A stretch of DNA of 23,647 nt, taken from IMG/VR virus record IMGVR_UViG_3300027833_001444, positions 1-23,647 of that record; one strand, given 5' to 3'. The notes beneath the pieces were generated by a model that was not told the origin of the DNA, ran no database searches, and was given only the letters and a program-made list of their open reading frames with translations. Shown one piece after another: positions 273-20,284 of the stretch; positions within the stretch are counted from its first letter, which is position 1, and every line of letters begins with the position of its first letter. Made by a program: the position numbers and the translations under genes. This stretch comes from a virus.

Positions 273-710
273 TTAAGAAATTTTAATTTCTTGAGGCTTA
301 TCTTCTTCGGGTATAATCCTTTCCAAAGATACACTCAAAATACCATTCTTCATATCTGCACCTTTAACGACAATGTCGTCTGCAAGTGTGAATGTTCTTT
401 TGAATGAACGAGATGCAAGTCCTCTATGGACATACTCAAGTTCCTCTCCTTCCTTTTGTTTACCTTCAATTGCAAGAACTTCTTTCTCTTTTGAGATTGA
501 AATATCTTTCTTATCAAATCCAGCTACTGCAAGTTCGATAGAGAAGTTCTCTGCATCGTGTTTTACAATATTGTAAGGTGGATAGTTTGTATTAGTCGGT
601 GACTGATTGGCACGTTCTAATAGTTGAAGAGTTCTGTCGAACCCGATTGCGAATGGGAATGATTTCCCGAAATTGAAGACATCAAAGTCTCCGAGCTGTT
701 TACTTGTCAT
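273..710 (-). CDS. hsp20: Small heat-shock protein, Hsp20/alpha-crystallin family
   Basis: 145 residues, the usual size for phage and bacterial small heat-shock proteins. The N-terminus (FNFGKSFPFAIGFDRTLQLLER) resembles IbpA-like proteins. An alpha-crystallin domain spans about residues 45-135, with YNIVKHDAENFSIELAVAGF, the FKRTFTLADDI segment and the GILSVSLER strand that ends the domain. The family holds unfolding proteins as an ATP-independent chaperone. T4-like marine phages commonly carry one, presumably to help capsid or host protein folding late in infection. A clear AGGAG stands six bases before ATG 710. A T4-type late promoter lies at 771-778. It is last in the row behind the cyclase gene but is separated from it by 95 bases holding its own promoter. 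Confidence 0.93.
   Translation of the reverse strand: MTSKQLGDFDVFNFGKSFPFAIGFDRTLQLLERANQSPTNTNYPPYNIVKHDAENFSIELAVAGFDKKDISISKEKEVLAIEGKQKEGEELEYVHRGLASRSFKRTFTLADDIVVKGADMKNGILSVSLERIIPEEDKPQEIKIS
275..292 (-). repeat. Perfect AT-rich inverted repeat at the hsp20 stop
   Basis: Two 8-base arms, AAGAAATT and AATTTCTT, flank a 2-base centre and cover the last codons of hsp20. No U-run follows in the transcript (it continues AAAAAC), so this is not a canonical intrinsic terminator. It could be an mRNA 3'-end stabilising hairpin or simply chance in AT-rich DNA. Confidence 0.35.
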
Positions 711-770: not shown

Positions 771-778
771 TATTTATA
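771..778 (-). promoter_or_regulatory. T4-type late promoter TATAAATA for hsp20
   Basis: The minus strand reads TATAAATACT, an exact match to the T4 late -10 consensus read by gp55, which is encoded in this window. It lies 60 bases before the hsp20 ATG and about 28 bases beyond the cyclase stop codon. Confidence 0.72.
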
Positions 779-805: not shown

Positions 806-2662
806 TCAAGAGGTTTTCTGTAACTTTCTTATGGTTCTTTTAAAGTATGGTGCGTAGATAGTAACAGGTTCTTCTTTACCTTTAACTGTTATCTTGTCTA
901 ACTCCTTTGTCTTAACATCTTTGGGTAGTTGGTCTAATGTGTATTGCGAAAGTATAATAGGTGTATCAAATGTTCTTGTTTGCACCTCAAGTCTTGCAGC
1001 TAGATTCACTGCATCTCCTACTACGGAGTAATCAAATCTTGCCTCTGAACCCATGTTACCCACAATACATGGGCCAGTATTGATACCTGTGCCGATTACT
1101 ACGGGTGGTAAATCATATCCCTGTTCTTTAAGTTCCTTGTTCATTTCTTCTGTTAACAGTTCTATTTCCATAGCACTTTTAACTGCCATTTCTGCATGAT
1201 TTGGGCAATCCAAAGGCGCATTCCAAAATGCCATCAAACAATCGCCCATATATTTGTCGATGGTTCCACCATTTGCGAGAACAATTTTTGACATTGCGTC
1301 TAGGAATTTATTGATAAGTTCAACCAATCCTTCGGGGTCATCCCTTTTCATATAACTTTCTGAGATGGGGGTGAACCCAACAATGTCGGCAAAAAGGAAG
1401 GAAAGTTCCTTTCTTTCTCCACCTAATTTCAATAATTCGGGGTTTTTTTGAAGTTGGTCAACCATGTCTGGCGATAAATATTTTTGGAACTGTTTCTTTA
1501 TTTGTTCTTTCAGTTGATACGTAGTGAAGTATTTGTTGAAAGATGCGTGACCAAAAACTAACAATGAGGCAAGAGATGAGTAAAAAACATCGAGCAAAAT
1601 CAAGTTTTCCATCCAAACGTAGTAGCCCATATACGCCTGCAATCCAACGACACCTAGACTCCCTATCCCCGAAAGAACTGTGGGAAGTCTGTAGACCATT
1701 GCCAATATTACTAGAGAAGAAAACAGAACGAGAACAATCTCTAGAAATTCAAGATAGTAGAATCGTTGTATTTGGAATCCTGTCAAGACGGTCTGAATTA
1801 AATTCGCTTGTACTTCATGGGGATACATTGCACCCATTGGGGTTGAAACTGGATTACTCAGACCTGAGGCTGTCAAACCCCATATAAGGATTTTATCAGA
1901 AGGCAGTTCATCAGTAACACTGACTCGTTCAAACTGATTCCAAAATGCAATATTAAAGTCTGCATTTGGTTTTGTTGTGAGTGGGGGTAATCTTCCTATC
2001 CTCACCCACTCAACACCAACTTCGGGTGTTATCTTAATGTTGTAAGACTGTTCCCCATTCATAACTCTCAACACTTCTAGTGCGAGAGATGGGTATATTT
2101 GGTCATTCGCCATCACTACAAGGGGTACAGAACGAACTGTACCGTCTATAGAAGGTGAAGCACTTACAGTACCTACTCCATAAACCGCCTCCTGTAGGGG
2201 TTGTATGGGACTTGAGATACCTTCATATGAGTATAACCAGTTACTAGGGTCACCTCTACCTAACTTTGCGATACCAATGTATGGTGCACTTCCTGTTTCT
2301 TTTTGATTGGTTGGTGAGGCGGAGAGCAGTGTCAATCTATTCCCCAATGTACTTATCAGTTTATCGTCTTGTCTAAATCTATCGGGTTGTGCAAACGTAA
2401 CTGTCAATACAGACGGACTTGTCTCTGGCGTCTTTTCAATCATGTCTGCCCACACTCCTCTAGGGAATGGAAACTGACCGTATTTTTCTAATGCCTTTTC
2501 GTCAATATCAACAAGAACTATATCACTAGCTTTAACTGGTTCTTGTTGTGTTTGTAGGAAATCGAAATAGTTGAGTCGAATTGACTCCATGAGGAATGGG
2601 TCTGAAACACGTAGACCAACTAGAAGAGCGATGGTTACTAGAACCGTCCACCATTTATACAT
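806..2662 (-). CDS. CHASE2-sensor class III adenylate cyclase
   Basis: 618-residue membrane protein. A hydrophobic segment at about residues 5-20 is followed by an extracytoplasmic CHASE2-type sensor (about 30-298, with SDIVLVDIDEKALEKYG). Three membrane helices follow (about 302-322, 328-350, 353-372), then a short linker and a cytoplasmic class III cyclase domain (about 415-605). The active site looks complete: metal ligands D426 (FADIVGF) and D474 (KYMGD), adenine-selecting K470 and D544, and transition-state N553 and R557 (VNLAAR). It should make cAMP from ATP in response to an envelope signal. AGG lies seven bases before ATG 2662, inside the end of the hydrolase gene five bases upstream, so it is the last gene of that row. 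A full sensor cyclase is unusual in a phage. Bacterial operons pairing CHASE2 cyclases with FecR proteins, as I recall them, make the nearby FecR gene a candidate partner. Confidence 0.92.
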   Translation of the reverse strand: MYKWWTVLVTIALLVGLRVSDPFLMESIRLNYFDFLQTQQEPVKASDIVLVDIDEKALEKYGQFPFPRGVWADMIEKTPETSPSVLTVTFAQPDRFRQDDKLISTLGNRLTLLSASPTNQKETGSAPYIGIAKLGRGDPSNWLYSYEGISSPIQPLQEAVYGVGTVSASPSIDGTVRSVPLVVMANDQIYPSLALEVLRVMNGEQSYNIKITPEVGVEWVRIGRLPPLTTKPNADFNIAFWNQFERVSVTDELPSDKILIWGLTASGLSNPVSTPMGAMYPHEVQANLIQTVLTGFQIQRFYYLEFLEIVLVLFSSLVILAMVYRLPTVLSGIGSLGVVGLQAYMGYYVWMENLILLDVFYSSLASLLVFGHASFNKYFTTYQLKEQIKKQFQKYLSPDMVDQLQKNPELLKLGGERKELSFLFADIVGFTPISESYMKRDDPEGLVELINKFLDAMSKIVLANGGTIDKYMGDCLMAFWNAPLDCPNHAEMAVKSAMEIELLTEEMNKELKEQGYDLPPVVIGTGINTGPCIVGNMGSEARFDYSVVGDAVNLAARLEVQTRTFDTPIILSQYTLDQLPKDVKTKELDKITVKGKEEPVTIYAPYFKRTIRKLQKTS

Positions 2663-2667
2663 AGATT

Positions 2668-3168
2668 TTACCTATAGAATATATGGGTATCTAAATGTAT
2701 AGTTTGGTTTAAATGGTCTGCCCAATATGGATGTATGTAATCTGCATGATACCACATTGCACCTTCCGTTAAATCAAAGTAATGACCATCGATTATATCG
2801 TTAGCAATTTCTAAACATTCTGCCCATGTTTTACTGTCTTTTGGTTTATCAGATTTACCATCACAAAACCAAGAGAACTGACACATTCCTAATTGAGGAA
2901 CTTTTTTTCCTGTCCAAGAAACTCTCCATGATTTGGTTTGATAAACCACTCCACAGATATCGTTAGGAAAGTTTTCGTGTTCAACACGATTCATAGTAAC
3001 GTTGGCGACAGCAACCTTACCCGCAAGTGGTTGGTTACCCGCTTCAAAATAGATGTTCTGTGCAAGACAATGAGCATCCATGTTAAGTTCTAATCCGTGT
3101 GCCTTTCCCGAAAAGAATCCCATACAGAACCCAAGAACGACAAGACACATATATTTATATTTATTCAT
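2668..3168 (-). CDS. Secreted SleB-like cell-wall hydrolase (Hydrolase_2)
   Basis: 166 residues with an N-terminal hydrophobic signal of about 25 residues (LVVLGFCMGFFSGKAHG). A SleB/CwlJ-type domain fills the rest. E42 in IYFEAGNQPLAGKVAVANV is in the position of the catalytic glutamate, and GAMWYHADYIHPYWA matches the C-terminal family motif. Members cut peptidoglycan glycan strands as lytic transglycosylases or amidase-like enzymes. With its own export signal it would reach the periplasm through Sec, so it could act as the endolysin without a classical holin. It follows the curli-like genes and precedes the cyclase. AGGA stands eight bases before ATG 3168. A TATAAATA string inside its first codons (3152-3159) looks accidental. 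Confidence 0.88.
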   Translation of the reverse strand: MNKYKYMCLVVLGFCMGFFSGKAHGLELNMDAHCLAQNIYFEAGNQPLAGKVAVANVTMNRVEHENFPNDICGVVYQTKSWRVSWTGKKVPQLGMCQFSWFCDGKSDKPKDSKTWAECLEIANDIIDGHYFDLTEGAMWYHADYIHPYWADHLNQTIHLDTHIFYR

Positions 3169-3217: not shown

Positions 3218-3889
3218 TTAGGGGGAACCTTGAGTAACGTTAACCGAACAACCACCGACAGTAAAACATGACTGCGTTAAGTTATACGTTTGATTAGTTG
3301 AACCTTGTTGTAATAGATTTAAGGTTGTAGGTTCAGTACCTTGAAGGTTTATTTGTGAATTATGATTGGCATTACCCTTCTGCATAATATCAACCTGTGA
3401 AGCGTCAGCAGTTCCGTAATAGTATGTGTGACTATAATGACTTCCAGTACCTTCTTGCCAATGTTCATGGTCTGTGTCATCCGCATGAATATCTAGGTTA
3501 TGTGTATGATTTCCACTTTGATACACATCGATATCATTATTGTTGCCCCATATGTGTCTACCATAGGTTGCACCATCTAACTGTATAACGTTTTCTGTGT
3601 TACCTGTACCATCAATATCACCACCCCATACTTTACCCGAACCCCAATATGAGACCCAAGAAATTGAGTTACCGTTTCCTGTTTGCGATAAATCAAATGA
3701 GTTACCAGCGTGGGCAAAGGTAAAATCGATATGATTATCGTAACCTATTTGGTCAATGTTAATATTCACGTTATCGCCATCAGCAACTTGTTCTATGTGA
3801 ACATGGTTATGTTCTGGCCCAGCAAAGCACTGTCCTACAAAAAATAAGACAATTACCGCAATTCCTAAATGGGTTCCAGTTATTTTCAT
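3218..3889 (-). CDS. Curlin-like repeat protein, secreted (copy 2)
   Basis: 223 residues with a signal peptide ending near CFA/G (residue 23). The mature part is a chain of imperfect Gln/Asn/Gly repeats of the CsgA/CsgB type: INIDQIGYDNHIDF, FDLSQTGNGNSI, IDVYQSGNHTHNLDI, VDIMQKGNANHNS, LNLLQQGSTNQTYNL, VNVTQG. The Q-x-G-x-x-N spacing suits a curlin beta-solenoid. The centre is rich in His, Tyr and Trp, unlike E. coli CsgA, and there is a C-terminal Cys pair (CFTVGGC). It is the last gene of the curli-like row and overlaps the upstream 41-codon gene by ATGA. It is probably exported through the CsgG-like pore. Whether it forms amyloid fibres or binds a surface is unknown. Confidence 0.78.
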   Translation of the reverse strand: MKITGTHLGIAVIVLFFVGQCFAGPEHNHVHIEQVADGDNVNINIDQIGYDNHIDFTFAHAGNSFDLSQTGNGNSISWVSYWGSGKVWGGDIDGTGNTENVIQLDGATYGRHIWGNNNDIDVYQSGNHTHNLDIHADDTDHEHWQEGTGSHYSHTYYYGTADASQVDIMQKGNANHNSQINLQGTEPTTLNLLQQGSTNQTYNLTQSCFTVGGCSVNVTQGSP

Positions 3890-4011
3890 TTTTGTTGTTT
3901 CCTTAAGAACTCTTCAATTCTCTTTGTTTGTTCAGCAATTGTATCTGCTTGGTCTTTGATTTTCTTTTTTTCAAACATTAGTTTTTCTTTCTGTTGTTGT
4001 GCTGTTGTCAT
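3886..4011 (-). CDS. 41-residue coiled-coil protein, coupled within the curli-like operon
   Basis: A 41-codon ORF (begins MTTAQQQKEKLMFEKKK, ends EEFLRKQQK) fits exactly between two real genes. Its ATG shares the A of the FecR gene's stop (TAATG), and its TGA overlaps the ATG of the next curlin-like gene (ATGA). The product is highly charged, with Leu/Ile/Met at coiled-coil spacing, and has neither signal peptide nor membrane segment, so it should stay in the cytoplasm. I recognise no family. The double coupling strongly suggests it is translated. It may be a chaperone for the curlin-like substrates or a means of passing ribosomes along the message. Confidence 0.6.
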   Translation of the reverse strand: MTTAQQQKEKLMFEKKKIKDQADTIAEQTKRIEEFLRKQQK

Positions 4012-5141
4012 TAGTTTGTTTGACGAATCTCAATTTGAATGGCTTCATCACCACCCATTGTTATCGTACTCTCCTTTTCATTAGTTACTGTATTTATTCG
4101 AGCCATAGCATCTATAGGTAACGTAATACTTATAGTACCTTCAACTTTTCTAAAGAATTTGACAGTGCCACTTCCCGTGTCTACGAAAGTGTTGTATTGA
4201 GTATCTTTGTCGAATCCTATCAAAGTTCCCTCAATACCGTAGGTATTGCTACTTGAACCTGACCTGTTTATACCTACCTTTCTATCAAGTTCTTCTACAA
4301 CATCAAGTAGGTCTTGTAAAAAATCTACATCTAACAAGTCCACATCAAGTTCGGTAAATTCTAAATCACCATCAGAGTCTTTCAATGCATCTACATCAAG
4401 ACCATCGAACTCTAAAAAGTCTACGTCTAGTAATCCACTGTCATTTGATTTAGTTGAAGATTCATCTATAACATTTTGTACATCAGCTGGCGGACTGACA
4501 ATAAACATATTGTTAATTAGGTTTGCTGAGATATTATTGATAACTACGGGTTCTGTTGGATATGAACTTATAGTTGATACCATAGTAGCACTGTAAGCTT
4601 CATTTAATGTTACGTCAATACCCGATTCATTACTAACTACAATCTCACCCGATGCATTACCGTTTGCGTCAGGCAAAAGTATAATGAGACTGCGCCCAAG
4701 CTCATCAATAGTGGTTGTAAAATCTGTTCCGTTAATTGCGATGTTAGCAGTTGGCGTTGATATCGCAATGTTTGATTTATTCATTTTACCCAGTTTACCT
4801 GAAGCAAACCGAGCAGTACCCATTGCCATTCTCATTGTCATTTTTGACAAGTCGGGATTTGGGTCATAATAAACTTCGTCAATAAACACTAACGTATGTT
4901 CTGTTAGTGCAAGTTCTTCTTCGTCTAAGAACTCAATTAACATTCTACCATTACCAGTTTCGGCTTCGTCATATAGGTTGACGCTCGGCAGATTGGTCGT
5001 AGGTATATTCACACCTTCTCTAATGATATTGCCAATACCAGTTTGTTCAACTATTTCCCCTATCGTATCCGCATAAACAGGATACGACAAGAGAACAGCA
5101 CTAATCAGAAGTGTCTTTTTGATTAATCGTGACGGTAGCAT
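4011..5141 (-). CDS. FecR-domain exported protein with LDVD repeats
   Basis: 376 residues. A clear signal peptide (LLISAVLLSYPVYA, cut near residue 24) is followed by a FecR-like beta domain (about 25-160): IGEIVEQTGIGNIIREG, then TRFASGKLGK-like and IAISTPTANIAINGTDFTTTI strands typical of FecR proteins outside iron transport. An acidic section at about 235-287 contains four LDVD units (at 238, 248, 265, 270). A C-terminal beta-rich part with FRKVEGTISITLPIDAM follows. No TonB/anti-sigma membrane helix is seen, so iron signalling is unlikely. It overlaps the upstream curlin-like gene by 41 bases and has no good Shine-Dalgarno, but the signal peptide fixes ATG 5141. A role as export substrate or periplasmic ligand of the CHASE2 sensor is inference. 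Confidence 0.75.
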   Translation of the reverse strand: MLPSRLIKKTLLISAVLLSYPVYADTIGEIVEQTGIGNIIREGVNIPTTNLPSVNLYDEAETGNGRMLIEFLDEEELALTEHTLVFIDEVYYDPNPDLSKMTMRMAMGTARFASGKLGKMNKSNIAISTPTANIAINGTDFTTTIDELGRSLIILLPDANGNASGEIVVSNESGIDVTLNEAYSATMVSTISSYPTEPVVINNISANLINNMFIVSPPADVQNVIDESSTKSNDSGLLDVDFLEFDGLDVDALKDSDGDLEFTELDVDLLDVDFLQDLLDVVEELDRKVGINRSGSSSNTYGIEGTLIGFDKDTQYNTFVDTGSGTVKFFRKVEGTISITLPIDAMARINTVTNEKESTITMGGDEAIQIEIRQTN

Positions 5142-5829
5142 TGTCAGATGTCAAGTCCAAATCAATCTTGCCAGGACATGTGTTGCTTCCACATGAACCA
5201 CTAGACTGAATTATGTCCATGTTCATAGAATCCCCATCAAGTTCCACTACTAAATCGTGGTCTGCGGCATCTATCTGTTTTGTGTCTATATTATTACTGC
5301 TACCAGTAATATCCATTTCCCATTTAGCTTGGTCTGAATCTATATCGATAAAGAACTGGTTTGAACTACCGACTAATGTTAAATCCATGTCCAAATAGTT
5401 GGCACTGGCTGCATAACCTTGGTCATAATCCCAAGTGTTACTGCTACCTGTAACTGATATGTCGATGTCTGAGTTATCAGCGTCACCCACATATCCTATA
5501 TTCCAATCAAAGACGTTACTATCACCAGTAAACGTCATGTCGATGGTACTGCTGTCTAAAATGGCAGGCCCAAATAGTTGGTTGCTGTTACCGATTTGGT
5601 CAAGGTTGAAAGTAATACTTGTACCTGTCAAAATCATATCGGTTGCAACTGAACCATTCGCAATGGTTCCACCAAATTTATTTCCGTAACCAACTTGGTC
5701 GATTGTTAATACTAATGTATCACCCGACTGTTGTAGAAATATCTCGTTATCATCATCAGCTAAAAGGGGCATAACAAACATCGTCATTAAAAGTGCTACT
5801 GCATATTTTAAATTATGATTCTTCTTCAT
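5101..5829 (-). CDS. Curlin-like repeat protein, secreted (copy 1)
   Basis: 242 residues with a signal peptide (LKYAVALLMTMFVMPLLA, then DDDNEI). The mature chain is a series of strand-turn units containing G-x-S-N or G-N motifs: LTIDQVGYGNKFGG, FNLDQIGNSNQLFG, TGDSNVFDWNIG, TGSSNTWDYDQG, VGSSNQFFIDID, TGSSNNIDTKQI. It is strongly acidic. A C-terminal Cys pair (CGSNTC) recalls CFTVGGC in the second curlin-like gene, so the two are likely paralogues. It directly follows csgG, overlapping its end by 17 bases, with GGGGA eight bases before ATG 5829. Likely a substrate of the CsgG-like exporter. It has fewer Gln residues than true CsgA, so amyloid assembly is uncertain. Confidence 0.75.
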   Translation of the reverse strand: MKKNHNLKYAVALLMTMFVMPLLADDDNEIFLQQSGDTLVLTIDQVGYGNKFGGTIANGSVATDMILTGTSITFNLDQIGNSNQLFGPAILDSSTIDMTFTGDSNVFDWNIGYVGDADNSDIDISVTGSSNTWDYDQGYAASANYLDMDLTLVGSSNQFFIDIDSDQAKWEMDITGSSNNIDTKQIDAADHDLVVELDGDSMNMDIIQSSGSCGSNTCPGKIDLDLTSDNATVTINQKDTSD

Positions 5830-6703
5830 TTTCGTTTTCCCCGATGACTATTTCGTCATCATTATAAGGTATGTCTCGGCCCAGTATTCTCCAGTATTTT
5901 CTATCATGTCCTTGATAAATCATTTGAAGAACAGCTGCTTCGATAGCAGACCTTGTTGCAAATGTCACTGACTCATTCTGTGTCACACCGTCCTCAATCT
6001 CGATGAGTTGGGTATCCATATCAACAAATTTGAAAACATCAAATCCTTGAGATACACTTAGTACAGTTTTCTTGGTTTGGACGTTCATAAGAACTTCCCC
6101 AGTCAATGTACTAACTGCTCTTAAGGAAACAACAATCGTATCTCTACGATAAGCAGTTGAGTGTCCTATACCAAGTGTTCTGGCACCTCTACCACCCGTT
6201 TCCATGTTAGTATCATATCCGATGACTCCGCCTTCCAATATAATACCAGCAAAAAGTAGGGGTTGAATTGTAGACTTTTCATCTCCATCCCCTTTAAATT
6301 GTTCTCTCGTACTTCTAACAATCTGTCTTTCACGAACTAGATTGTCAATTCCTTCTCTCTCGACTACACGGAACCATGTTCCACCACCTGCCGTTTTGAG
6401 TGCATCTATCAACATTGCAGTAGCACCTTGAGTGACTGCTGTACTAAATGTTGCGACTCCGTCTTGTCTTTTTCTTTGTCCTGTTAAATCTTGAAACCCA
6501 TAGACTGCAATAACTGGCATAACCTCAGCTGCTGGCAGTTCTAATAATAATGCATACGCAGGCAACTTGATTGCTTCGGGGTCTTCAATACACTCCCCAA
6601 CTGCATTCATTATCAGTGTAGTACAGGAATCCTTCATTACAGGAATACCCGCACAACCAGTCATTAAAAGTACCAGTAAAACTGTGGACAAAATCCCTTT
6701 CAT
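5813..6703 (-). CDS. csgG: CsgG-like outer-membrane curli secretion lipoprotein
   Basis: 296 residues with a lipoprotein signal (LVLLMTGC, lipid on C17). The body aligns with E. coli CsgG: VYGFQDLTGQRKR (VYNIQDETGQFKP in E. coli), FSTAVTQGATAMLIDALK, WFRVVEREGIDNLVRERQI, LEGGVIGYDTNMETGG-GARTLGIG, LRAVSTLTGEVL and SAIEAAV near the end. CsgG forms a nonameric beta-barrel through the outer membrane that exports unfolded curlin subunits. In the constriction loop F86 matches E. coli F56, but the Tyr51 and Asn55 positions are not conserved and the loop seems one residue longer. An acidic tail replaces the usual end. Its ATG overlaps the csgF stop (TAATG), with GGTGGA upstream. Identity is clear; what it exports in infection is not. 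Confidence 0.93.
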   Translation of the reverse strand: MKGILSTVLLVLLMTGCAGIPVMKDSCTTLIMNAVGECIEDPEAIKLPAYALLLELPAAEVMPVIAVYGFQDLTGQRKRQDGVATFSTAVTQGATAMLIDALKTAGGGTWFRVVEREGIDNLVRERQIVRSTREQFKGDGDEKSTIQPLLFAGIILEGGVIGYDTNMETGGRGARTLGIGHSTAYRRDTIVVSLRAVSTLTGEVLMNVQTKKTVLSVSQGFDVFKFVDMDTQLIEIEDGVTQNESVTFATRSAIEAAVLQMIYQGHDRKYWRILGRDIPYNDDEIVIGENENEEES

Positions 6704-7194
6704 TAGAATCCACCAGTCCCTATTGGTATCTCAATCACAGTTGAAGTTCCGTCTGTACCCACAATGGTCATGACTATCCAATCATCACATAAACCATCAG
6801 CATTACATATATTCTTTACTTCATAAGTAATAGTATTGCCCTCTAATGAAAACGTACCATACTGTGCACCTTCTTCATTTGAGAACATATTCTCAACTAA
6901 TTGTTTTGACAGCTGAGCATAAATTCTTGATTCCAAATTTCTAATGAATTTGGCCAGAGTTGTATTATCAGCTTCTCTCTCTGCTTTCAACAGAGCTGCC
7001 TTTATGTCTTCAGCAATCTTATCTGCTCTAGACTTTTCTTGATTTTCAATTGTCAAATAATGAGCGGAAGTTCCCTGTCCACTAAATGACGGATTCTTAA
7101 ATTTGTGGACAAGTTCGTCCGCTTGTGTCGGATAAACGACACATATTAGTAACCACACTATTAATGCAATTTTTGTTCCACTATCAATTTTCAT
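6703..7194 (-). CDS. csgF: CsgF-like curli assembly protein
   Basis: 163 residues with a signal peptide ending near TQA/DEL (about residue 25). Just after it, LVHKFKNPSFSGQG matches the conserved CsgF start (FQFRNPNFGGNP in E. coli). That segment plugs into the CsgG channel and makes its second constriction. A charged helical region (about 50-105) and a beta-rich end (TFSLEGNTITYEV, STVEIPIG-like) follow, as in CsgF, with one Cys pair (CNADGLC) not typical of the family. In E. coli CsgF links the pore to the nucleator CsgB outside the cell. Its order next to csgG is conserved. ATG 7194 overlaps the end of the preceding membrane-protein gene, whose last codons hold AAGGA. Confidence 0.88.
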   Translation of the reverse strand: MKIDSGTKIALIVWLLICVVYPTQADELVHKFKNPSFSGQGTSAHYLTIENQEKSRADKIAEDIKAALLKAEREADNTTLAKFIRNLESRIYAQLSKQLVENMFSNEEGAQYGTFSLEGNTITYEVKNICNADGLCDDWIVMTIVGTDGTSTVIEIPIGTGGF

Positions 7195-7459
7195 TTTTAT
7201 TTTCCTTAGCGTCCTCTATTAATTTTTGACGCTCACGATACTCTAAGACAGTGTTTACCTTTTCTTGTAAACGAAGCATGTCTTGGTCTAACATTCTAAG
7301 TTGGTCTGTCAATTTTATACTTGCGGTGAACATTCTTCCGAGTGCGGGTTTGACTTCTATGGTGATGAATTTCCACACATACCATATAAAGTACCCCATA
7401 CCCATAGACATAACCATTGGGAAACCGAACTCTGCTATTAGTTGAGCAATGTTACCCAT
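7184..7459 (-). CDS. Small membrane protein, paralogue of upstream gene
   Basis: 91 residues: one membrane helix (about 12-33, in IAEFGFPMVMSMGMGYFIWYVW), then a charged helical tail likely to form a coiled coil (LRMLDQDMLRLQEKVNTVLEYRER). The N-terminus lines up with the upstream gene product (LIAEFGFP against FLSEVGIP), so the two are tandem paralogues. One short N-terminal helix with a coiled-coil tail is seen in several small phage membrane proteins, including some holin-like ones, but I recognise no family. It overlaps csgF by 11 bases. AAGGG lies ten bases before ATG 7459. A role in holding or opening the inner membrane next to the CsgG pore is inference. Confidence 0.72.
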   Translation of the reverse strand: MGNIAQLIAEFGFPMVMSMGMGYFIWYVWKFITIEVKPALGRMFTASIKLTDQLRMLDQDMLRLQEKVNTVLEYRERQKLIEDAKENKNEN

Positions 7460-7464
7460 AAAGA

Positions 7465-7758
7465 TTAGTCCCTTCTAGCGTCTATAGTTCCATCCTCAAC
7501 AAAATTTTCTGCACGAGCAACCCTATCAATTGGTGGAGTGAGGTCTAATGCGCTACTGACTAGTAAATCTATTTTAATTATGTCGTTGTTCATTACACGT
7601 GCTCGTGTTTCAAGCATGCCAATGATGTTTTCTGTGGATGCTATCTGACCTAGGACGGACTCAAATATATACTTGAGCGTCAGATAGATAAAGAATGCCA
7701 TCACTACCGCTGTTCCGATAGGGATACCAACTTCACTTAAGAATTGAAATATGTCCAT
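7465..7758 (-). CDS. Small membrane protein, first gene of the curli-like operon
   Basis: 97 residues from ATG 7758. One membrane helix (about 9-33: EVGIPIGTAVVMAFFIYLTLKYI) is followed by a helical soluble tail. An in-frame ATG at 7782 would add eight residues, but that stretch contains a perfect late promoter box (7764-7771), has no Shine-Dalgarno, and goes beyond the N-terminus of the paralogue at 7184-7459. I therefore prefer 7758. No Shine-Dalgarno precedes 7758 at useful distance either; the promoter would start transcription on its A, giving a leaderless message. Family unknown; possibly holin-like or a scaffold for the downstream export genes. Confidence 0.65.
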   Translation of the reverse strand: MDIFQFLSEVGIPIGTAVVMAFFIYLTLKYIFESVLGQIASTENIIGMLETRARVMNNDIIKIDLLVSSALDLTPPIDRVARAENFVEDGTIDARRD

Positions 7759-7763
7759 ACACC

Positions 7764-7771
7764 TATTTATA
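7764..7771 (-). promoter_or_regulatory. T4-type late promoter TATAAATA for the membrane/curli-like operon
   Basis: The minus strand has an exact TATAAATA, then GGTGT and ATG 7758. In T4 late promoters the first transcribed base lies six bases after the last A, which here is the A of the ATG. It stands at the head of the run of genes from 7758 down through csgF and csgG, and probably to the cyclase. Confidence 0.68.
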
Positions 7772-7800
7772 GGTTTGGACATGGTGAGGGTAGTATTTAG

Positions 7801-19195: not shown

Positions 19196-20284
19196 CTATT
19201 TATCTTTCAAAGGTTTCGACAGTTCTTCCCATGATGTTTCGTAGTCTGAGTCTCCATCAGCAAATCCCATCACCCCTAATTTCTCATATTCGGGAACTAA
19301 TGATTCGTGTAACAATCCGATTCTTTTAAGGTTAGGCATAATCCTAGTAAATAGTATACCTTGGAATTGTGTTTGCCAGATGTTCTCTTGATTGTATTTG
19401 TCCGTGTAGTCCAAATCAAATCCGTACTTTTCCCAAACAGGATATGCTTTCATTCTGTTTCGCATAATTGTAGATGCTTCCAAAGCAAACTGTGCTCTGT
19501 CCAACTTTTCTTCTTCAGATAATGTTTCAACAAAATCAGACAGATAAGTCATACCAAATGTTACATGTCTTGCTTCATCTCTAATAATCAAATCTATCAT
19601 ATCTTTAAAGACTTGGTCAGCAGCCATTTGTCTAGTTGCTTGGAAAGCGGCCAATGCTAAACCTTCAATGATGACTTGCATTCCTATGAATTTCAAATCC
19701 CATCGTGGGTCAGTTAGAATTTTATCTAGTAGACTTTTAAGTGGAACAGTAATCGGCCATGTGCGTCCAATACGTGTCTGTAGATACTTATTAAATGCCT
19801 CTACATGTCTTGCTTCATCAAATGTCTGAGAAGCTGCATATAGTTTTGCATTGAATGTTGGTGCACAACTGGCTAATTGAGATGCAACTAACAATGCACC
19901 CTGTTCACCATGTAGATACTGACTTACTGCCCACGAATTCATGTCTATATGAAACTGTACTCGTTCTTCTACAGTAAGTTTATTGTATCCTTCATGAGCA
20001 TCCCACTGTCTATCTTCATTCTTGAACATATCAGTGTCTGCATCTAATTGATGAAACGGTACGTCCCAATCAACATCAACCTCTACATTCCAGTTAAGTT
20101 TTTTGCCTAACTCATAGAGTTTTTTGATACGGTTATCTTGAACATTATAGTCCCAATTGTAAGAACCTGTTAAAGGCGTCTCAAAAATTTCCACAATGTC
20201 CGTGGGGTTTAAGTCCTTTTTAGGGTATTCTCCACTATGTTGGACTATCGATTTTGGTGTCGAGGTTGTTCTAATTACTTTCAT
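19196..20284 (-). CDS. Ferritin-like di-iron carboxylate protein (R2/AurF-like)
   Basis: 362 residues. Two helix pairs supply a classical di-iron site: E127 (LHGEQG), E157 and H160 (FDEARH), E207 (IIEGLA), E237 and H240 (RDEARH), with exactly 30 residues between the members of each pair. This is the pattern of ribonucleotide reductase R2, R2-like oxidases and N-oxygenases such as AurF. It is shorter and different around the site from T4 NrdB, and no R1 gene or radical-Tyr context is visible, so an oxidase/oxygenase is as likely as a nucleotide reductase. The C-terminal part (about 280-362) is family-specific. ATG 20284 follows the gp46 stop by seven bases; GGA lies eleven bases upstream. The substrate is unknown. 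Confidence 0.8.
   Translation of the reverse strand: MKVIRTTSTPKSIVQHSGEYPKKDLNPTDIVEIFETPLTGSYNWDYNVQDNRIKKLYELGKKLNWNVEVDVDWDVPFHQLDADTDMFKNEDRQWDAHEGYNKLTVEERVQFHIDMNSWAVSQYLHGEQGALLVASQLASCAPTFNAKLYAASQTFDEARHVEAFNKYLQTRIGRTWPITVPLKSLLDKILTDPRWDLKFIGMQVIIEGLALAAFQATRQMAADQVFKDMIDLIIRDEARHVTFGMTYLSDFVETLSEEEKLDRAQFALEASTIMRNRMKAYPVWEKYGFDLDYTDKYNQENIWQTQFQGILFTRIMPNLKRIGLLHESLVPEYEKLGVMGFADGDSDYETSWEELSKPLKDK
19197..19204 (-). promoter_or_regulatory. Late-promoter-like GATAAATA before the 446-codon gene
   Basis: GATAAATA, then GTAGT, then ATG 19191: one mismatch to the late consensus and the same five-base distance to the ATG as at 7758. It overlaps the stop of the upstream gene. Single-site evidence, so uncertain. 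Confidence 0.35.

Follow-up and report, generated by a model that had tools for sequence, protein, structure and literature searches.

We propose that the cyclase gene of the window, here the whole 23.6-kb stretch of DNA that we analyzed, probably lies at the promoter-distal end of a phage curli (type VIII secretion) operon that is mobile and expressed late, and that its product would act as an envelope- or curli-sensing receptor cyclase. Phage curli genes were reported by Zaragoza-Solas et al. 2020 (PMC7029224), and the available text of Wittmers et al. 2022 (PMC9599517) describes phage T8SS clusters in myo- and podoviruses that include FecR and an adenylate cyclase (AC), with affinity to the Alphaproteobacteria and, for genes of the curli region, evidence from metatranscriptomes. 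An earlier note on this DNA had suggested that the cyclase would be a new kind of host reprogramming; since the cluster of AC, FecR and curli genes was published in 2022, as far as that text goes, and the copy in phage HTVC008M carries a cyclase annotation, the gene is of a known kind. What we add is a corrected active-site residue, linkage counts, the placement of late promoters, the shuffling of sensor and catalytic halves, and the missing cAMP system in one host order.

The cyclase and its viral setting

The cyclase reading frame (Table 1) runs uninterrupted for 618 codons from an ATG start. Pfam domains and an AlphaFold2 model (30 homologues, mean pLDDT 87) agreed on the layout of a CHASE2 receptor cyclase, with an N-terminal CHASE2 domain, three predicted transmembrane helices and a cyclase domain, upholding the full architecture claimed in the earlier note. 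The model has an N-terminal helix at residues 4-20, a CHASE2 domain of alpha/beta type that extends to about residue 294, long helices at 304-325, 328-353 and 360-392, and the cyclase domain at 416-605. Its best matches among solved structures were adenylate/guanylate cyclases, and the modelled cyclase domain gave a TM(target) of 0.90 against CyaB (3r5g) and 0.87-0.89 against CyaC (1wc1). The whole protein matched phrog_35576 (PHROGs, E 2.4e-182), a family of unknown function.

Six catalytic and specificity residues had been named in the earlier note, and five of them (D426, K470, D474, N553 and R557) were right. The sixth, D544, was misassigned; the second specificity position is S546, two residues downstream of it, as shown by an alignment to CyaB (Thr) and to the guanylate cyclase Cya2 (Glu/Gly), in which the aligned segments read Y-T-I-I-G and Y-G-V-V-G, respectively. 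The specificity pair is K470/S546 in the window cyclase, K/T in CyaB and E/G in Cya2. Serine or threonine at the second position, together with lysine, is the class IIIb adenylate signature; S546 with K470 fits it, so the adenylate prediction stands on a corrected basis. The metal-binding Asp pair (D426, D474) and the transition-state Asn and Arg (N553, R557) are also present, and the predicted adenylate-cyclase site appears intact. Among 106 distinct phage homologues spanning the site, D426, K470, D474 and R557 were invariant, position 546 was S/T in 101 and D in 5, and position 553 was N in 101, the same five having S; these five are of the Melnitz type. The replacement of the transition-state Asn by Ser in these copies counts against the reading that we favor. 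The class IIIb enzymes CyaB (P. aeruginosa) and CyaC (Arthrospira) share the fold, the catalytic residues and the K plus S/T pair with the window cyclase and carry other sensor domains; their activity is proven, whereas the window cyclase is known from sequence and model, which suggest that this phage-borne gene product is probably an active CHASE2 adenylate cyclase.

That a bacterial cyclase locus was joined to phage DNA during assembly has a vanishingly small probability. The window itself is an IMG/VR record of a T4-like phage with clamp loader, sliding clamp, regA, peptide deformylase and gp46-like genes, and in a 94.8-kb relative T4-like replication genes flank the cassette on both sides. 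We exclude a join because isolate genomes and dozens of independent viral contigs show the same arrangement of cyclase neighbours. The cyclase phylogeny points the same way: in a quick tree, with support by SH-aLRT only, the phage cyclases formed one fully supported group, separate from 29 alphaproteobacterial CHASE2 (PF05226) proteins. The recurring viral neighbours and the separate phage clade thus bear out the claim that the cyclase is phage-encoded. Compared with homologues of about 91% identity (L007, L009 and L016), dN/dS was about 0.08-0.15 in all parts of the gene; at values near 0.1 the frame has not been kept by chance, suggesting purifying selection with the catalytic half included.

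The gp46 of the window was nearest to that of Methylophilales phage Melnitz (46.6%; HTVC008M, 44%), and a capsid protein was likewise nearest to Melnitz (67.5%; HTVC008M, 65%); neither the capsid nor tRNA was decisive as a pointer to the host. Cyclase matches under the name of an Acinetobacter phage were set aside, as the stretch inspected in one of them (H7; L004, CAKLQH020000011.1, under the name Acinetobacter phage MD-2021a) proved to be bacterial chromosome. Six phage-like contigs (L085-L089 and L094) had been binned into MAGs of Sphingobacteriales, Flavobacteriaceae, Rhodobacteraceae and Pirellulales; their cassette looks viral, not bacterial. An AurF/aldehyde-decarbonylase-like diiron protein is encoded at 19196-20284 (-) of the window, adjoining the gp46/47-like genes.

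Table 1. Coordinates of the cyclase, its predicted domains, and the surrounding genes and promoter elements in the window
Feature	Position	Strand	Basis
Receptor-type class III adenylate cyclase (predicted), CHASE2 + 3 TM + cyclase, 618 aa	806..2662	-	ORF, Pfam, PHROGs, model, residues
CHASE2 sensor domain, aa 10-319, predicted periplasmic	1706..2635	-	Pfam PF05226, E 1.4e-32, 113.7 bits, far above cut-off; model
Three long helices, aa 304-392, putative membrane anchor and signalling helix	1487..1753	-	AlphaFold2 secondary structure; membrane placement inferred
Cyclase catalytic domain, aa 418-601, with D426, K470, D474, S546, N553, R557	860..1411	-	Pfam PF00211 (Guanylate_cyc), E 5.9e-20, far above cut-off; residue mapping
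T4-type late promoter element TATAAATA	7764..7771	-	5 nt before first operon gene
Late promoter element TATAAATA of downstream Hsp20 gene, separate transcription start after cyclase	771..778	-	Motif
Small membrane/coiled-coil protein, first copy, phrog_18771	7465..7758	-	Start MDIFQF preferred over ATG at 7782
Small membrane/coiled-coil protein, second copy, phrog_18771	7184..7459	-	PHROGs; always directly upstream of CsgF
CsgF	6703..7194	-	PF10614, E 6.8e-16
CsgG outer-membrane curli export pore	5813..6703	-	PF03783, E 1.3e-52
First curlin-like secreted repeat protein (CRL1)	5101..5829	-	Repeat Q-x-G-x2-N; alignment of 22 phage copies
FecR-domain protein, apparent signal peptide	4011..5141	-	PF04773, E 3.5e-6; conserved position
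Second curlin-like secreted repeat protein (CRL2)	3218..3889	-	Position and homology to cassette CRL2
Cell wall hydrolase (Hydrolase_2/SleB-like), apparent signal peptide, 166 aa	2668..3168	-	PF07486, E 6.5e-26; phrog_938 endolysin, 2.5e-20
Hsp20 small heat-shock protein, frequent downstream neighbour	273..710	-	PF00011, E 1.5e-18

The phage curli operon and its late promoters

A cyclase-seeded search of viral contigs yielded at least 475 relatives. The order of the cassette was constant in these loci, P18771-P18771-CsgF-CsgG-curlin1-FecR-curlin2-(hydrolase)-cyclase-(Hsp20), with the cyclase as the last gene of the operon. A second search seeded with CsgG was the fairer test of linkage. Of its loci, 32 extended far enough in both directions; all of these kept the order up to curlin2 as well as the FecR gene, and 31 kept the cyclase, which is absent from L233. 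Podovirus versions of the cluster do not always have AC, according to the available text of PMC9599517. The CRL2 copy of HTVC008M gave a Curlin_rpt match (E 5.2e-8). CsgG relatives were also seen on viral contigs of 217-340 kb (L254, L255 and L235), above known pelagimyophage genome sizes. The cassette is common in the ocean, each scan matching at least hundreds of IMG/VR contigs.

The cyclase of Pelagibacter phage HTVC008M (AGE60353, adenylate/guanylyl cyclase) has the same domain and cassette order as the window and 44% identity over 98%, with 37% in the CHASE2 half and 68% in the catalytic half. Its cassette is without the hydrolase and Hsp20 genes and is flanked by the ssDNA-binding-protein gene on one side and by tail genes on the other, whereas that of the window follows the clamp, clamp-loader and regA genes. 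Melnitz, represented by four isolates, has the same cassette with a cyclase (annotated adenylate/guanylate) of 35% identity over 97%; its catalytic domain belongs to a different class III lineage, with D at 546, S at 553 and a C-terminal extension. Pelagibacter phage Mosig gave no cyclase match. The pelagiphage T8SS/AC/FecR cluster, as described in the available text of PMC9599517, has the gene set and order of the window, including FecR, the second curlin-like gene and AC. The window differs from that description by the hydrolase, and by proteins without a kinase domain at the position labelled 'histidine kinase'.

These proteins, encoded by the two genes before CsgF, are about 91-97 aa in length, each having a single hydrophobic helix and a tail that resembles a coiled coil, and they are paralogous (phrog_18771). 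The pair always opens the phage curli operon (7184-7758 (-) in the window, and homologous loci), and among isolate phages these genes were found only in the cassette carriers HTVC008M and Melnitz. Neither Pfam nor PHROGs detected a HisKA/HATPase kinase domain in either protein. A histidine kinase (HK), sometimes two, stands before CsgF in the published cluster, where the HKs were grouped with short, diverged or paralogous genes (PMC9599517, available text). The phrog_18771 genes are therefore probably the 'histidine kinase' genes of Wittmers et al., and the kinase label deserves re-examination. A holin identity for the small paired proteins was rejected, there being no significant Pfam match.

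The T4-type late promoter element TATAAATA was in excess at three gene starts: 23 of 39 distinct loci had it close to that of the first small gene, against 0.9 expected, 19/40 had it close to that of CsgF (1.5 expected) and 8/14 at that of Hsp20 (0.4 expected). It was found at none of 46 FecR starts or 41 CsgG starts, and its absence from all 68 cyclase starts led us to reject a promoter of the cyclase's own. A further copy at 3152-3159 falls within the hydrolase reading frame and was taken as a coding coincidence. With the element at the operon start but not at the cyclase, the cyclase would ride on the late operon transcript, and expression from that transcript is most likely, as judged from the motif. 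Such late promoters argue against an early take-over role for the cyclase. A gap of exactly 5 nt usually separates the element from the ATG, whether of the first operon gene or of CsgF (7759-7771 (-) in the window; 7549-7562 in L002), and at that spacing the late mRNAs would be leaderless or nearly so.

Late expression also enters a reading, which we consider unlikely, in which the operon is a lysis or envelope-permeabilizing device, the cyclase serving to report damage to the envelope or to help set the timing. A CsgG/CsgF pore, small membrane proteins and a secreted hydrolase would be suitable components, two small proteins with one helix and a coiled coil always head the operon, the secreted cell-wall hydrolase lies inside the cassette in the window subclade, and phage CsgGF has been suggested to act in lysis (PMC9004378). 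However, the hydrolase is found between curlin2 and the cyclase mainly in that subclade and is missing from most cassettes, the small proteins do not significantly match any holin family, and lysis has no evident need for cAMP.

Histories of the sensor and catalytic halves

The two halves of the phage cyclases differed in identity from pair to pair. HTVC008M and Melnitz are 58% identical in CHASE2 and 36% in the catalytic half, whereas Melnitz and L088 are 35% and 80% identical, respectively; the window and L014 share 88% in CHASE2 and 66% in the catalytic half, and L014 and L018 share 54% and 86%. These values indicate that the sensor and catalytic halves have had different histories and have been shuffled between phages with the adenylate signatures persisting, which has apparently not been discussed before and is absent from the published cluster description in the available text of PMC9599517. 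The Melnitz-type replacement catalytic domain carries K and D, an adenylate-type pair. Repeated exchange with the chemistry retained would mean that the product itself, and not the mere presence of the protein, has been selected.

Synonymous codons were more conserved than expected at the CHASE2/helix boundary in the window subclade (about 1628-1897, codons ~256-345), possibly the trace of a recombination joint; across 23 independent pairs an excess (z 4.5) was seen at codons 301-325 only. An antisense ORF of 114 codons at 1543-1887 (+) overlaps the conserved stretch and was not retained, the excess being modest over the 23 independent pairs.

The association of a CHASE2 receptor cyclase with a nearby FecR gene is known from bacteria. 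In Sinorhizobium meliloti, the CHASE2 cyclase gene cyaD1 lies near clr (CRP family) and the FecR gene SMc02177, which is dispensable for plant-signal perception, and CyaD1 without CHASE2 makes cAMP constitutively (PMC5498481); Campylobacterota CHASE2 cyclases also cluster with FecR (PMC9239204). These systems resemble the window in the FecR-cyclase pair and differ from it in being bacterial, with no curli genes described, and, in S. meliloti, in having the cyclase near its CRP-family receptor gene. Among 20 sampled alphaproteobacterial loci, nine had a FecR gene within about 5 kb of the CHASE2 cyclase. The close Parvularculaceae-type loci had the pair in 4/4, with a CRP-family gene downstream in all three loci long enough to show one. 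Three clear csgF-csgG curli loci were found in 289 alphaproteobacterial genomes, none with FecR or a CHASE2 cyclase within about 10 kb, and on this count we rejected a curli-CHASE2 linkage in the sampled Alphaproteobacteria as the source of the module. The lack of linkage in these genomes suggests that the union of curli with the FecR-cyclase pair was made in phages or was taken from an unsampled donor.

Proposed sensing and output of the cyclase

In the reading that we favor, the cyclase would be a class III adenylate cyclase of receptor type, working as a homodimer in the inner membrane with CHASE2 facing the periplasm. Together with the periplasmic FecR of the operon, CHASE2 would read the state of the envelope, or curli export or assembly, late in infection, and once the sensor is engaged the cytoplasmic domains would be free to pair and to form cAMP from ATP. 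Where the host has a CRP-like regulator, the cAMP would act through that regulator; in SAR11-type hosts, where no canonical receptor was found, a non-canonical or a phage target must be supposed. The envelope sensor proposed in the earlier note is a reasonable idea, given the predicted periplasmic CHASE2, the FecR gene in the operon and the bacterial FecR genes beside CHASE2 cyclases. From its gene neighbourhood, FecR may be read as a candidate partner of the cyclase; the dispensability of SMc02177 for plant-signal perception in S. meliloti counts against this.

Related ocean viruses with the cassette include SAR11 infectors, according to the available text of PMC9599517. Neither a class I nor a class III cyclase was found at the HMM level in 97 genomes of the SAR11 order. 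We reached this order through one class-sample genome with 16S probe sequences that we take to be those of SAR11. Matches to the cNMP-binding domain occurred in 6 of the 97 genomes, all weak and five of them in 870-aa frames; the one protein that we read was long and acyltransferase-like by eye, not CRP. At the HMM level, at which other cyclic-nucleotide receptors could escape, no CRP-type receptor was seen in the 97 genomes. One genome of the SAR11-sample order (G110, C1:324111-325130) encodes a CHASE2 protein in a 683-aa frame without a cyclase domain. A phage-encoded cAMP receptor was also rejected: the complete HTVC008M and Melnitz genomes and six phage fragments had no cNMP-binding domain (PF00027), HTVC008M, Melnitz and several phage fragments had no GAF domain, and cNMP matches appeared only in a bacterial MAG (G004), where the checked contig was not the phage's. 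That these 97 genomes show no class I or III cyclase and no CRP-type receptor, and the two complete phage genomes no such receptor either, has apparently not been discussed before.

These results leave the claim of the earlier note that the phage raises host cAMP and so reprograms transcription through the host CRP network doubtful, as it is unsupported for SAR11 hosts, and we regard it as decidedly unlikely overall. In bacterial relatives a CRP-family gene does accompany the FecR-cyclase pair, and the host of the window phage might have CRP; against this stand the counts from the SAR11 order, one known host group, and the late promoters, which imply expression after host take-over.

The lack of a receptor in phages or SAR11 could also mean that the FecR-cyclase pair is an inherited passenger, captured with the curli genes from a bacterium and hitchhiking with its product unused. 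We hold this to be very improbable, since the catalytic half appears to be under strong purifying selection, active-site residues are kept in 106/106 homologues, the exchanged catalytic domain is again adenylate-type, and the 289 alphaproteobacterial genomes showed no case of curli genes together with CHASE2 genes.

Our favored reading, an envelope- or curli-sensing cyclase of the late operon, has a missing output, because the SAR11-order hosts of the relatives are without a detected cAMP receptor or cyclase. We tentatively raise, as possible although not probable, a private second messenger of some marine phages, in which the late phage sensor and cyclase would make cAMP in cells of a lineage with neither a cAMP cyclase nor a CRP receptor, a signal that is orthogonal to the host and acts on an unrecognised phage or host target, with sensors swapped like tail fibres and the chemistry kept.

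If active, the cyclase would make cAMP in bacteria, some of them of a lineage seemingly without cAMP signalling, and any cAMP in infected SAR11 cells could then be measured directly and would point cleanly to phage signalling. The cyclase also offers a handle on the purpose of phage curli.
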